From a virus: a DNA stretch of 27,263 nt. The notes below the pieces were generated by a model. The model was given only the letters and a program-made list of their open reading frames with translations. It was not told the origin of the DNA and did not search any database. How positions within the stretch are numbered: the stretch's first letter is position 1; each line of letters opens with the position of its first letter. The DNA lies in IMG/VR virus record IMGVR_UViG_3300048672_000260, positions 1 through 27,263 of that record; one strand, written 5' to 3'. Positions 4,726 through 13,828 of the stretch are shown piece after piece. The position numbers and the translations under genes are program-made.

Positions 4726-4954
4726 GCAAGGCTATGAAAATGATATTCCAGACGAAGCACCGCACAAATTGGAAGAACTTTGTAAAGCTCCATCTTATCG
4801 AATGATTGTCAAAGCACTGCTTAAAAATGAAACCCATTTGGAGTCTTTGGGATTTCAAAGAAGTACATGCCAACTTTATGGCGAACTCAAGCGTATAGAG
4901 CTACAAAAAAAAGGACGTAACGTAACAACATGGATTCAGCTAAAAATGTTTTAG
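4667..4954 (+). CDS. stand-alone homologue of IbrA C-terminal (DUF3440) module
   Basis: About 95 residues; the start is uncertain (ATG 4667, or GTG 4697). After a basic helix (VGSYISKWLKQGY), the segment from DIPDEAP through APSYRMIVKALLKNETHLES to LGFQR aligns with the C-terminus of the following IbrA-like protein. There DFPDE, CPSWKAVCVTIMKND and MGCSR occur at the same spacing. Similar small proteins accompany YbdN-like genes elsewhere. It overlaps the next gene by 25 bases, so co-production is likely. It may bind the enzyme or the same ligand. Confidence 0.75.
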   Translation: MNGTKRVKKRVGSYISKWLKQGYENDIPDEAPHKLEELCKAPSYRMIVKALLKNETHLESLGFQRSTCQLYGELKRIELQKKGRNVTTWIQLKMF

Positions 4955-6303
4955 ATGCAGCTATGGAGCGCATAGCAATGATGTTCGATGATTTTGAACA
5001 TGTATTGGTAGCGTTTTCATGTGGCAAGGACAGCGGAATTTGTCTGAGTCTTTGCTACAAGTATGCCAAAGAAAACAACCTACTTCACAAGATGGCTGTT
5101 TATTACGAGGATTACGAAGCTGGGTATAAATCAACCGACGAATACGCACAGCGTGTTTTCTCTGAAATGACAGACGTTCGCAGATACTGGCTTTGTCTTC
5201 CTATTTCTGCCGCTTGTTCAGTGTCAATGTATGAAACCCGTTGGATACCATGGGACAAGGACAAGAAGCATCTTTGGGTTAAACCAATGCCTGATCTTGA
5301 TTGCGTAATCAATGAAGACAATTGTCCATATCCCTTCGTGAAAGGTACGAAGGGCTTTGATGCTCGGATACAGTTTTCTACATGGTTTTCTTCTGTCAAT
5401 CCTGGGCGAACTGCCGTAGTAATTGGCATTCGCGCTGATGAGTCATTAACACGAAGGGCTATTTTTACAAGCCAGTATCGCAGGCATATGCACAAAGGTT
5501 TGTCATACACAAAAACAATTGATAAGCAGACTGTGAATTTTTATCCAATTTTTGATTGGAAGACTTCAGACATTTGGGTATGCAATGCCAAGTTTGGGTT
5601 TGATTACAACAAGATTTATGACTTGTATTACCAGGCTGGTCTTACGATTGACCAAATGCGTGTCGCAAGCCCATTTCATCAAAGCGGACAAGACAACCTA
5701 AAGTTGTATCGAGTAATTGACCCAAACAATTGGGGCAAGATGGTTGGCCGCGTTAATGGTGTAAATTTTGGCGGCATATATGGCGGAACTACCGCAATGG
5801 GGTGGAAGACGCTTACAAAACCTACGCACTTTACATGGAAGCAATATGCATATTTTTTGCTAGAAACTTTGCCAGATGGTGCAAAAAAAAAGTTTCTGTA
5901 TCACCTGGAAAGATTCCAAAAAATATGGAGTGAGAAGGGATACGGCAGAAACCCAAGGGTAATTGCATTAATGCGAGCAGAAGGCATTGAAATTGAAAAC
6001 ACGCAAGTTATTTCAAAGCTATGCAAGAAGCCAGATGTTTATGAGATTGTCAAAATCAAGTCTGATTTCCCAGATGAGACAAAAGGAAATTATTCAACGC
6101 CATTTAGGCACTGCCCAAGCTGGAAAGCGGTATGCGTGACGATAATGAAAAATGACTTTGCTTTGCAGTACATGGGATGTTCTCGCACTCAAGACCAAAA
6201 CATCACAAAACAAAAAGCGCTTGAAAAGTATCAGCGAAGGCAACAGGCAAAACAAGTTGCCGCATTAGAGGAAGATTTAGGCGACGAAGATTTAGAAGTT
6301 TGA
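4930..6303 (+). CDS. ibrA: IbrA/YbdN-like PAPS-reductase-family protein (DUF3440)
   Basis: A 457-residue protein. The N-terminus has a PP-loop SCGKDSG (residues 30-36) like those of PAPS reductases and N-type ATP pyrophosphatases such as DndC. The middle carries YYEDYEAGY and GIRADESLTRR, typical of YbdN/IbrA proteins. The last 80 residues are a DUF3440-type module. IbrA with IbrB was first described as an activator pair for eib genes in E. coli. The chemistry is unknown; sulfur or nucleotide activation is inferred from the fold. An IbrB-like ParB gene follows after 17 bases, as in known pairs. Confidence 0.88.
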   Translation: MDSAKNVLDAAMERIAMMFDDFEHVLVAFSCGKDSGICLSLCYKYAKENNLLHKMAVYYEDYEAGYKSTDEYAQRVFSEMTDVRRYWLCLPISAACSVSMYETRWIPWDKDKKHLWVKPMPDLDCVINEDNCPYPFVKGTKGFDARIQFSTWFSSVNPGRTAVVIGIRADESLTRRAIFTSQYRRHMHKGLSYTKTIDKQTVNFYPIFDWKTSDIWVCNAKFGFDYNKIYDLYYQAGLTIDQMRVASPFHQSGQDNLKLYRVIDPNNWGKMVGRVNGVNFGGIYGGTTAMGWKTLTKPTHFTWKQYAYFLLETLPDGAKKKFLYHLERFQKIWSEKGYGRNPRVIALMRAEGIEIENTQVISKLCKKPDVYEIVKIKSDFPDETKGNYSTPFRHCPSWKAVCVTIMKNDFALQYMGCSRTQDQNITKQKALEKYQRRQQAKQVAALEEDLGDEDLEV

Positions 6304-11008: not shown

Positions 11009-11471
11009 GCGATACAGCACGGCCCGGAACACGTCAAACCTGAAAACCGGCGCATCAGCGAACGATATCCTGATGGCGGTGGGCATGGCTGGACAGCGTG
11101 ACCCGGAAGCGATAGCACTGCTAAACCTTGCTTTCGGGCACCATCCGAGCGCCAGGGTAGCATTTGCCAAGCTGATTGAAGGCAAACTGACTGAGAAGAT
11201 GCTGACAGCAAGATGGCCCGGTAAACCCAGGCAGACGGCTATGGAAGCGATAGCATGGTACTTAGACGGCACATGCCAGCCATGCGGAGGGCGAAAATAC
11301 GAGGTAGCGCCCGGAACCCCCATGCTGACAGACAAGGCATGTAAGCACTGTCACGGGACTGGAAAGCTGCCTAAACCGCCAGAACAGTTATTCCAGTATG
11401 CAATAGACCTGATTGAAAGGCTTGTAGTTTTAGCGGAATCAAGGCCAAAAACAAAGCTATTGCGGAACTAA
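10995..11471 (+). CDS. Q-like late antitermination protein (Zn-finger type)
   Basis: A 158-residue protein from ATG 10995 with AGGAG 7 bases upstream. The N-terminal two thirds are helical (ILMAVGMAGQRDPEAIALLN, MEAIAWYL). A DnaJ-like zinc site follows: CQPCGGR (Cys94, Cys97) and CKHCHGTG (Cys116, Cys119). This composition and its place as the last early gene, directly before a long leader and the packaging genes, match the Antiterm/Q proteins of phage 82-type lambdoids, which load on RNA polymerase at the late promoter. The late promoter candidate overlaps its stop codon. Confidence 0.75.
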   Translation: MRISERYSTARNTSNLKTGASANDILMAVGMAGQRDPEAIALLNLAFGHHPSARVAFAKLIEGKLTEKMLTARWPGKPRQTAMEAIAWYLDGTCQPCGGRKYEVAPGTPMLTDKACKHCHGTGKLPKPPEQLFQYAIDLIERLVVLAESRPKTKLLRN

Positions 11472-11487
11472 ATGAATGTGCTATATT
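11460..11487 (+). promoter_or_regulatory. late promoter candidate with extended -10
   Basis: A -10 TATATT at 11482-11487 is preceded by TG (11479-11480), an extended -10 element. A poor -35 TTGCGG lies at 11460-11465 with a 16-bp spacer. Initiation would be near 11494. A CACGG/CCGTG hairpin follows at 11505-11521. This is the expected place for a Q-controlled pR' promoter. A second candidate, TTGACT (11587-11592) with TATCTA (11609-11614), lies inside a stem and is less convincing. Confidence 0.6.
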
Positions 11488-11576
11488 CTAAGAACTGCGA
11501 CAAACACGGTGTTTTGCCGTGAGAAAAACAAACGCAACTAGGCCCCTAATGGATAGGTGTCTGTGCATGTTTTGTC

Positions 11577-11761
11577 CTAACGCATGTTGACTAGGTGCCG
11601 AGTAACGCTATCTATCAGGCATGGTAGGTGTCGCGGAAAGTCAACATTCGTTAGCGCGAATGCGTAGGCTGATACGCAGCAATGCACTTGATCAATGCGG
11701 CTACTGGCTTAGAAGACCAGCGTGCGAGCCAAATCCGGAGACCAGCACCGGACGCGCTAAC
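11577..11761 (+). ncRNA. structured late leader, domain 1 with competing stems
   Basis: A 16-bp stem with one mismatch pairs 11577-11592 with 11639-11654. A perfect 9-bp stem pairs GTTAGCGCG (11650-11658) with CGCGCTAAC (11753-11761). The two share 11650-11654, so they exclude each other. Inside the second stem sit four hairpins: TGCGTA/TACGCA (11661-11666, 11673-11678), a bulged one at 11684-11698, GGCT plus CTGG with their complements (11699-11730) and TCCGG/CCGGA (11734-11738, 11748-11752). The last stacks directly on the closing stem. No open frame of note crosses it. RNA status is inference from the exact pairings. Confidence 0.5.
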
Positions 11762-11819
11762 ATAAAAACCACATTAAAGTAGCACAAAAGCAAACAGCGT
11801 GCCATAATCGCGCCACTGA

Positions 11820-11964
11820 TGCGCAGGGAATGCGCAACCCGGCCCGGCACATGTTTCGGGCTTGTCCGACATAAGGACGTGCATCACCGAGAGGCCAGCA
11901 GTCATTACGATTGTCTGGCCTTTCCCATTTCCGCAAACCCGCACCGCCAGACCGTAAAGGCCAG
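11820..11964 (+). other. structured late leader, domain 2 with competing hairpins
   Basis: Short hairpins occur at 11820-11836 (TGCGCA, GGGAA loop), 11842-11861 (GCCCG/CGGGC) and 11864-11878 (GTCC/GGAC). CTGGCCTTT at 11915-11923 can pair either upstream with AGAGGCCAG (11890-11898, one wobble) or downstream with AAAGGCCAG (11956-11964, perfect). These again are mutually exclusive. The upstream version could serve as a weak terminator, the downstream one as its antiterminator, but the T-run is poor. No gene is visible in 11523-12138. Confidence 0.42.
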
Positions 11965-12012
11965 CACACAGCAATTCACACGATGCTGACCCGTGCACCA
12001 GGCGCGGCCCTT

Positions 12013-12094
12013 GATTGATGGGCAAATCAATCTAACTACCGCAACAAAGCCCAGTCAGTCCCATTCCTCCTAGTGGGTGCTGACTGGGTGCGGT
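12013..12094 (+). other. hairpins before the packaging genes
   Basis: GATTGAT/ATCAATC (12013-12019, 12026-12032) is followed by a long hairpin: ACCGCA/TGCGGT (12038-12043, 12089-12094) enclosing CCCAGTCAG/CTGACTGGG (12050-12058, 12080-12088) and CCCA/TGGG at the tip. No T-run follows on either strand, so it is not a standard terminator. Possible roles are an mRNA-stabilising end, a processing site or a packaging signal near the terminase genes. All are inference. Confidence 0.5.
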
Positions 12095-12138
12095 TAAGTA
12101 AAAACCCTTATGTGGACAATCCGCAAGGAATCCAAAGC

Positions 12139-12314: not shown

Positions 12315-12590
12315 ATGAATACAAAAGCATTACCACGAACCGCCTTTGTAAAAGGTGAGAAAAGACCAGGACAAGGGCGCCCCAAGGGTATGCTGAATAA
12401 GAACAATCAGCAAATCCGGGACATCATCGTCCAGACATTAGACAACCTCGGCGGCGCTGCCTATCTTGAAGAAGTGGCGCGCAGTCATCCCCCAGCATTC
12501 ATGGCGCTGATTGGCAAGACCATGCCGCTGCAGGTGACTGGTGACCCGAATAGCCCGCTCCATACCAGCCTTACAGTCACATTCAAGTGA
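12315..12590 (+). CDS. putative terminase small subunit
   Basis: A 91-residue basic protein from ATG 12315 with AAAGGA upstream. It begins with a basic GRPKGMLNKNNQQIR (AT-hook-like Gly-Arg-Pro) segment, then helices (IIVQTLDNLGGAAYLEEVAR) and PPAFMALIGKTMPLQV. This RPKG...FMxLxGKxxPLQV layout is widespread directly upstream of terminase large subunits. It probably recognises packaging DNA. The GTGA overlap with the large subunit supports the assignment. It is shorter than most small subunits, so an auxiliary DNA-binding role remains possible. Confidence 0.7.
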   Translation: MNTKALPRTAFVKGEKRPGQGRPKGMLNKNNQQIRDIIVQTLDNLGGAAYLEEVARSHPPAFMALIGKTMPLQVTGDPNSPLHTSLTVTFK

Positions 12591-13828
12591 TCGAACTACC
12601 GGGAAAGCTGAAGCCGCTATTCGAGCCATGCCGTTACAAAGTGATGTACGGTGGGCGTGGTTCGGCCAAAAGCTGGTCAGTAGCCCGGGCTTTGCTGATT
12701 CTGGCTTGTCAGAAGCCCATTCGGGTTCTTTGTGCGCGTGAGACACAAAAATCAATCCAGGAATCAGTCCACCGGCTACTAAAAGACCAGATTGAATTGA
12801 TGGGCCTCCAGGACTTTTTCGAGGTTCAGGAAACCAAGATCATAGGTAAGAACGGCTCAGACTTCGCCTTTGCTGGCATCAGACAGCAGGGTGTTACGAA
12901 CCTCAAGAGCTTCGAAGGCGTCGATGTGGTTTGGGTTGAAGAAGCCCAAGTGGTCACCCGCAAGTCTTGGGATGTGCTGATTCCGACCATCCGCAAGCCA
13001 GGCTCTGAGATATGGATAACCTTCAATCCTGAGCTTGATTCGGACGAGACTTACGAGCGCTTTGTCTTGACTCCGCCAGACGGGGCAAGAGTCATCCCGG
13101 TGAACTGGAGTGATAACCCATGGTTTCCGGCTGAACTGGAAACCGAACGGCTGGCTTGGAAAAAGCGTGACCCGATAGGTTATGAGACTGTATGGGAAGG
13201 CAAGTGCCGCCCAGCAGTTGAAGGCGCTATTTACGCCCGTGAGATTGACGCGCTACAGCGTGATGGCAGGCTAAGGAATGTGCCGTATGACCCGATGCTT
13301 AAGGTGCATACAGTCTGGGACTTGGGCTGGAATGACGCCATGTCTATTGTGTTTGTCCAGCGCCAGGCCTCTGAAGTTCGGGTGATTGACTACATTGAAG
13401 ATAGTCACCGGACGCTTGATAGCTACGTGGCTGAGATAAAGGACAGGCGCTGGAACTGGGGCACTGACTATCTGCCCCATGATGGCAGGGCAAAGAACAT
13501 CCAGACCGGGAAAAGCGCAGAGGAAATTCTCAGGGCTTTAGGCCGGACTGTGCAAATCACGCCGAATCTGGACATTGAAAGCGGAATCAAAGCTGCTCGG
13601 ATGATGTTCCCCAGATGCTATATCGAGCAGACCAAGTGCAAAGCATTGGTTAACGCCTTGAAGCGCTACAAACGGCAAATGAATCAAATCACAAACGAAC
13701 CCGGCGCACCTTTGCACGATGAGAACAGCCACGGAGCTGATGCTTTCCGATACCTTGCTGTGGTGGTGGATAAGCTGTCTAACGACGCTTGGAAGCCCCT
13801 GAAATACCCAGAGATGGGCATCGTATGA
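12587..13828 (+). CDS. terL: terminase large subunit
   Basis: A 413-residue protein with GTG start 12587. ATPase: Walker A YGGRGSAKS (21-29), Walker B VDVVWVEEA (112-120, catalytic Glu118/119) and coupling motif ITFNPE (144-149). RNase H-like nuclease: VWDLGWNDA (Asp245), LPHDGRAKN (Asp299) and SHGADAFRY (Asp385). This is a PBSX/Sf6-type (Terminase_3) packaging motor that cuts and threads DNA through the portal. All motifs are intact. The C-terminus overlaps the next ATG as ATGA. Confidence 0.97.
   Translation: MIELPGKLKPLFEPCRYKVMYGGRGSAKSWSVARALLILACQKPIRVLCARETQKSIQESVHRLLKDQIELMGLQDFFEVQETKIIGKNGSDFAFAGIRQQGVTNLKSFEGVDVVWVEEAQVVTRKSWDVLIPTIRKPGSEIWITFNPELDSDETYERFVLTPPDGARVIPVNWSDNPWFPAELETERLAWKKRDPIGYETVWEGKCRPAVEGAIYAREIDALQRDGRLRNVPYDPMLKVHTVWDLGWNDAMSIVFVQRQASEVRVIDYIEDSHRTLDSYVAEIKDRRWNWGTDYLPHDGRAKNIQTGKSAEEILRALGRTVQITPNLDIESGIKAARMMFPRCYIEQTKCKALVNALKRYKRQMNQITNEPGAPLHDENSHGADAFRYLAVVVDKLSNDAWKPLKYPEMGIV

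Follow-up and report, generated by a model that had tools for sequence, protein, structure and literature searches.

The window analysed here is a virus record of 27,263 bases from IMG/VR, and the gap of approximately 670 bases between its Q-like ORF and its packaging genes contains a structured RNA (11577–11761) that is an undescribed relative of the STnc100/PasD RNAs. The phage RNA family to which it belongs is very common, almost entirely unannotated and absent from Rfam as such. Comparison of aligned relatives shows that a scaffold of three stems (P1, P2 and P3) is conserved at the RNA level around an insert that varies from phage to phage. The core runs in the order P1, which is variable in sequence, AAT, P2 (5 bp with the loop GGCTGA), the insert, P3 (5 bp with the loop AGATCAGCA and variants of it) and the returning strand of P1. 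The insert is 24 to 176 nt long in relatives, with a median of 72 nt. The features of the window copy and its surroundings are collected in Table 1.

Table 1. Features of the RNA element of the window and of the region around it.
Feature	Position	Strand	Remarks
Q-like zinc-motif gene, 158 aa	10995–11471	+	Immediately upstream of the RNA element; weak matches
Candidate extended -10 promoter, TGC-TATATT	11479–11487	+	Sequence reading; predicted RNA start near 11494
P0 5' arm	11577–11592	+	Outer part 11577–11582, inner part 11584–11592; partner 11639–11654
P0 3' arm	11639–11654	+	11650–11654 common to P0 and P1
P1 5' arm, GTTAGCGCG	11650–11658	+	Covariation over 49 cores
P2 hairpin, GCGTA-GGCTGA-TACGC	11662–11677	+	Identical 20–21 nt in three unrelated phages
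Loop L2	11667–11672	+	GCUG at 11668–11671 complementary to 11743–11746; kissing partner
Hypervariable insert, 56 nt in the window	11678–11733	+	Sequence differs among members with the same scaffold
P3 hairpin, TCCGG-AGACCAGCA-CCGGA	11734–11752	+	Abuts the P1 3' arm
P1 3' arm, CGCGCTAAC	11753–11761	+	Partner of 11650–11658
Separate structured domain, 256 nt	11863–12118	+	Closed by a 13-bp helix, 11863–11876/12106–12118, probability about 0.9
Small terminase-like gene	12315–12590	+	phrog_11043, E 2e-14; phrog_18735 terminase small subunit, E 3e-4
Terminase large subunit	12587–13828	+	PF04466, E 1e-37

The gene upstream of the element was named Q-like in the first-pass annotation. This assignment is supported by its place and by a CxxCxGxG zinc motif, and the direct database match to Q is weak (TIGR02642, E 0.004; phrog_8027, E 6e-4; Q-like phrogs, E 0.2–0.7). 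A distant relative of the protein encoded in L072 matches phrog_127 (Q-like) with an E-value of 0.016, and L072 shares the gene order of the window, namely wHTH, Q-like, non-coding gap and terminase. The Q-like and wHTH proteins of the window are themselves nearly without relatives. The promoter candidate at the head of the gap was not returned by a stricter consensus scan of the window. The gap had been described as holding no convincing gene, and the small ORFs within it are indeed without any match. The TerL relatives of the window phage bear unrelated leaders, and tRNA genes are found upstream of TerL in three of these relatives (L036, L044 and L080). The early region of the window encodes a PAPS-reductase/DUF3440 gene (4930–6303).

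Most of the stem architecture first proposed for the window copy holds. P0 is paired at 15 of its 16 positions (11577–11592 with 11639–11654), P1 at nine of nine (11650–11658 with 11753–11761), and both stems need 11650–11654. The last of the four hairpins described inside P1 was proposed to stack on the closing stem, and this hairpin, P3 (11734–11752), does abut the P1 3' arm. The first and last of these hairpins (P2 and P3) covary in relatives; the second and third (approximately 11681–11725) are not family features and fall within the hypervariable insert, so the 'five-way junction' holds for the window copy only. Dinucleotide shuffling of the 600-nt gap produced a 16-nt stem of the P0 type within 150 nt in none of 200 shuffles and at least one 9-bp stem in 40 of 200; the 16-nt stem is beyond chance and the 9-bp stem alone is not. 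The fold energy of 11494–11800 corresponds to a z-score of -0.77, and 120-nt windows across the region give z-scores of -0.5 to -1.6. Energy alone would not single out 11577–11761, and the proof of the stems is the comparative covariation read from relatives. The window copy lacks a strong consensus promoter at P1, and no terminator follows P1; the copy must therefore be excised from a longer transcript or work in cis.

Rfam contains no family that matches the window RNA at the gathering score, and a blastn search of the gap against phages at an E-value of 1e-5 identified no DNA similarity. The P2 motif recurs in non-coding gaps of unrelated phages, found only at blastn E-values of up to 10. 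Three phages have exact matches of 20–21 nt to P2 in non-coding gaps: Alcaligenes phage CASP1, the D3-like phage IME307 and Pseudomonas phage ZC08, whose copy is surrounded by an array of tRNA genes. All three also carry P3 and a closing stem that differs in sequence and still pairs: GTTAGCGCG/CGCGCTAAC in the window stands beside GATGGTG/CACCATC and ATGCAGGTG/CACCTGCAT, and the stem of IME307 extends over at least 19 pairs. A scan of viral contigs with a 17-mer from P2 returned at least 120 stretches, as did an independent scan with P3 only, and the L3 variant of the window, used as a third query, returned 35 contigs, in most of which covarying P2 and P1 are in place. A synthetic consensus query, run with a permissive cut-off, matched 204 phage records, some of which are expected by chance, and each of the 60 matches listed joins two pieces that correspond to both conserved parts. 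Approximately 200 relatives were gathered from viral contigs and from named phages of several genera. Among 5426 complete E. coli genomes, 722 match the mEp460 locus over 80% or more of its length as queried, and the number rises to 1857 when a match to any part counts, the flanks among them; none of the E. coli genome matches listed for this locus carries an RNA annotation over the core. Two kinds of candidate were rejected. Skatevirus-type sequences (L092–L094) share 20–21 nt with the window and lack the 3' arm of P2, and were judged to be chance or coding matches. The cloverleaf-like look of the element led to a tRNA, tmRNA or tRNA remnant being considered; relaxed ARAGORN settings gave nothing credible and Rfam gave no match.

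Covariation was assessed in two sets of cores. The first consists of 87 distinct cores picked by the sequence of P3 alone, with P1 and the P2 stem unselected for pairing; here the six inner pairs of P1 form in 90–97% of cores, each with several pair types, and the pairs of P2 form in 93–100%. P1 pairing stands at 0.869, whereas dealing out the 3' arms anew gives 0.645 at most. The second set is an alignment of 49 cores that includes the window row and leaves out the inserts, in which 96.5% of cells are paired, compared with 28–43% when partners are slid, and 18 of 23 pairs are changed on both sides. Its covariation score is 0.430 against 0.101 for shuffled alignments, and none of 500 shuffles reaches any of the measures; the last two rows of this alignment come from a structure descriptor. 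By stem, both-side changes are present in all eight scored pairs of P1 (91.8% paired), in all five pairs of P2 (98.8% paired), whose loop GGCTGA served to locate it, and in four of the five pairs of P3 (99.6% paired), which the search pattern had held partly constant. G-U pairs are tolerated. Homologues with compensatory changes, which the first-pass annotation had named as the check on its stems, thus exist, with P1, P2 and P3 all covarying.

The loops of P2 and P3 are predicted to kiss. The L2 sequence GCUGA is complementary to UCAGC of L3 in nearly all cores, and 98.8% of the L2-L3 cells in the 49 cores are paired, the two sequences being mostly invariant. The window copy forms four of the five pairs, all clean, with a single A-C mismatch. 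Loop variants that keep complementarity are GGUGAU/AUCACC (L255), GCGA/UCGC (L287) and GUGC/GCAC (L265), the last being of the STnc100 type. These variants were found by a sequence-free descriptor over 2.7 Mb that also returned many chance matches with unrelated loops, and the assignment of L255, L287 and L265 rests on the common AAT spacer and ground plan. Covariation between L2 and L3 is suggested by these few descriptor-found variants together with STnc100.

An upstream P0 helix that terminates at or within the P1 5' arm and scores at least 20 is found in 102 of 179 members, compared with 12 of 179 when each core is given the upstream sequence of another member. At a lower cut-off 116 members have P0, of which 34 overlap the P1 arm directly by at least 3 nt; among the other 82, an outer extension of P0 brings 56 into such overlap, a fraction of 0.68 that compares with 0.31 for controls. 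The overlap ranges from none to 8 nt in relatives, and the P0 duplexes reach up to 20–24 bp. P0 is absent or weak in a large minority of members and is therefore not part of the core. The motif ACGCATG occurs in P0 of 24 of 179 members against 10 and 3, an enrichment too weak to define P0. In the window copy the ensemble energies with full P0 and with P1 are -65.9 and -66.2, a difference of 0.3 kcal/mol, and kissing, which lies outside the energy model, would favour P1. When the growing window RNA was modelled, outer P0 was predicted to be formed until position 11752 and at about one half once 11762 was reached. A sigma-70-like promoter ending at P1 is found in five of 179 members (3% against 1%), none of which has P0; P0 seems dispensable where a copy defines its own 5' end, small as these numbers are. 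The element had been proposed to be either a leader RNA that switches or a phage ncRNA not described before. The homologues and their compensatory changes agree with an ncRNA, and switching stands as a layout: the mutually exclusive arrangement of P0 and P1, in which the outer half of P0 often contends for the P1 5' strand, is shown by comparison of relatives to be conserved, and its use as a regulatory switch is inferred.

In the relatives whose context was examined, the RNA lies between Q and holin or terminase genes or among tRNA genes. Antitermination Q genes are located upstream of the RNA in L246, L268 and L133. Downstream, holin genes are found in L246, L133, L138 and L232, with a near-identical holin in L268, and a terminase in L172; many relatives lie far from terminase genes. 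Erwinia phage phiEt88 has the order Q, RNA, tRNA-Phe and holin. Members are also near tRNA genes in Aeromonas phage ST4, Klebsiella phages KlebP_265 and Magnus and a 97-kb E. coli plasmid. This plasmid, pCREC-532_2 (59302–67450; L223), encodes rdgC, a Dam-type methyltransferase and dnaB and looks P1-like. A tRNA lies within 600 nt of 16% of the 179 members, compared with 5% of random positions, and all 53 of these tRNAs are on the strand of the RNA. A terminator-like (intrinsic) hairpin follows 12% of members, compared with 2% for control windows, and a start codon with a Shine-Dalgarno sequence follows 27% against 12% in controls. Tandem arrays of at least two RNA copies with different inserts, approximately 200–430 nt apart, are present in L180, L196, L199, L130, L207, L222 and L099. 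In another seven sequences (L110, L132, L161, L176, L189, L190 and L205) the insert is nearly the same and the upstream flanks differ, a pattern that resembles an exchange of inserts or flanks by recombination.

Further downstream in the gap of the window lies the separate structured domain, closed by TGTCC.ACATAAGG/CCTTATGTGGACA. The plus strand between 11821 and 12000 gives the strongest fold signal in the 27 kb (z-scores of -5.1 and -6.5), and for the domain z-scores reach -6.5 on the plus strand and are about -0.4 on the opposite strand. No homologue of this domain was found; a scan of genome contigs with a pattern taken from it returned one match, on a Thermodesulfobacteriaceae contig. 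At 2161–2280 of the window, the two strands alike give fold z-scores of about -5, suggestive of an inverted repeat in the DNA.

Of the known RNAs, STnc100 (RF02076) is closest in plan. Its model has the order P1 (GGUG), AAU, P2, variable region, P3 and P1' (CACC), and the window fits this order with GTTAGCGCG/CGCGCTAAC as P1 and with P3 stacked on the P1 3' strand. The loops of STnc100 are complementary in our reading (GUGC/GCAC), as are L2 and L3 of the family, and both occur in prophages or phages with multiple copies per genome; the loop sequences and the P2 and P3 stems differ. The RF02076 model matches the window neither at the gathering score nor at E-values of up to 10 in 11440–12130, and it does not match the family members of named phages in L089–L091 and L215–L224. 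Because of this the window RNA was not filed as STnc100. A separate RF02076 match lies near the family member in Klebsiella phage Magnus, and it is directly followed by a long near-perfect hairpin (L218, 4769–4842), for which the miRNA-family matches reflect the palindromic shape only. In PMC13192938, PasD and STnc100 are described as structurally related prophage sRNAs, with PasD near the antitermination gene Q, and the term 'kissing' is absent from the part of its text that was searched. The PasD RNAs are detected by northern blot, are stabilised in an Hfq-dependent manner and have RIL-seq targets (PMC8550237), and STnc100_4 gives a northern signal in EHEC (PMC5331693). The EPEC prophage sRNAs PasD1 and PasD2 resemble the window RNA by description in their phage origin and their relation to STnc100; they lie near Q, and the window RNA lies near a gene that is Q-like by motif and place. 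The Pas sRNAs are reported to be largely restricted to Escherichia and Shigella, whereas members of the window's family occur in phages from several genera. GOLLD and ROOL belong to the ornate RNAs, large structured RNAs of bacteria and phages with complex folds (PMC12286853). The window RNA has no Rfam match, a core of approximately 110 nt and another fold plan. The antiterminator RNAs HK022 put and EAR are structured leader RNAs at the head of operons; by description alone, the family differs from them in its variable insert and frequent downstream terminators.

The best explanation, and one that we consider probable, is that the window RNA is a late phage sRNA of the STnc100/PasD kind whose insert carries the specificity. 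It would probably serve to regulate messages of the host or of the phage during late infection. The sRNA would form part of the leader of the late genes, or be cut from it, downstream of the Q-like antiterminator. The P1-P2-P3 clamp, with L2 and L3 locked, may protect and present the insert, which could then base-pair with host or phage messages, as is reported for PasD on Hfq. During transcription P0 is modelled to take the 5' strand of P1 first; it may thereby keep this strand from mispairing with the insert and release it once the 3' strand of P1 has been made. In copies that lie inside longer transcripts, the long P0 duplex would be a possible RNase III processing site.

Members head late operons after Q, lie upstream of tRNA arrays and are always on the same strand, which would also suit a cis-acting late-leader element that confers termination resistance on RNA polymerase in the manner of HK022 put or the Bacillus EAR, with the P0/P1 exchange setting the timing. 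We regard this as unlikely: an intrinsic terminator directly after 12% of members is odd for an antiterminator, a hypervariable insert in a fixed clamp is unexpected and tandem copies exist. The length of the P0 duplexes, the nearby tRNAs and the Shine-Dalgarno start codons that follow members would fit a processing or stability module, in which P0 would be an RNase III hairpin, the P1-P3 clamp a protected 5' end for maturing tRNAs or late transcripts and the insert neutral filler. Members with their own promoter or an immediate terminator have nothing downstream that needs such protection, and this too appears quite improbable.

The conserved layout in which two stems vie for one strand, with nearly the same energy in the window copy, could belong to a riboswitch-like cis switch in which a ligand or trigger controls the next gene through the P0/P1 exchange. 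Such a switch is very unlikely given that the downstream features vary (tRNA, ORF, terminator or terminase), that the P0/P1 overlap can be nil and that a conserved expression platform was not seen among relatives. An element acting as DNA, such as a packaging site or recombination hot spot with no RNA function, would account for the position of the window copy just upstream of the terminase genes and for the same insert occurring with different flanks. The tolerated G-U pairs, the terminators after many members, the many phages in which relatives are distant from terminase genes and the expression of the STnc100 relatives as sRNAs make this explanation hardly tenable.

For the favoured late phage sRNA of the STnc100/PasD kind, a more general role can be put forward tentatively. 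The shared STnc100-type kissing-loop clamp may be a general phage platform on which interchangeable inserts act as separate regulators of late infection, with the strand-exchange hairpin guiding folding or release and with copies swapped and stacked into arrays as tRNA genes are. A defined scaffold would allow the RNAs of this family to be annotated, their inserts to be read out and their targets to be predicted. It would also make testable the long-standing question of what role is played by phage late-leader RNAs and by the unexplained RNAs beside phage tRNA genes. The three-strand layout would in addition provide a simple natural RNA, open to mutation, in which to test strand exchange during transcription.
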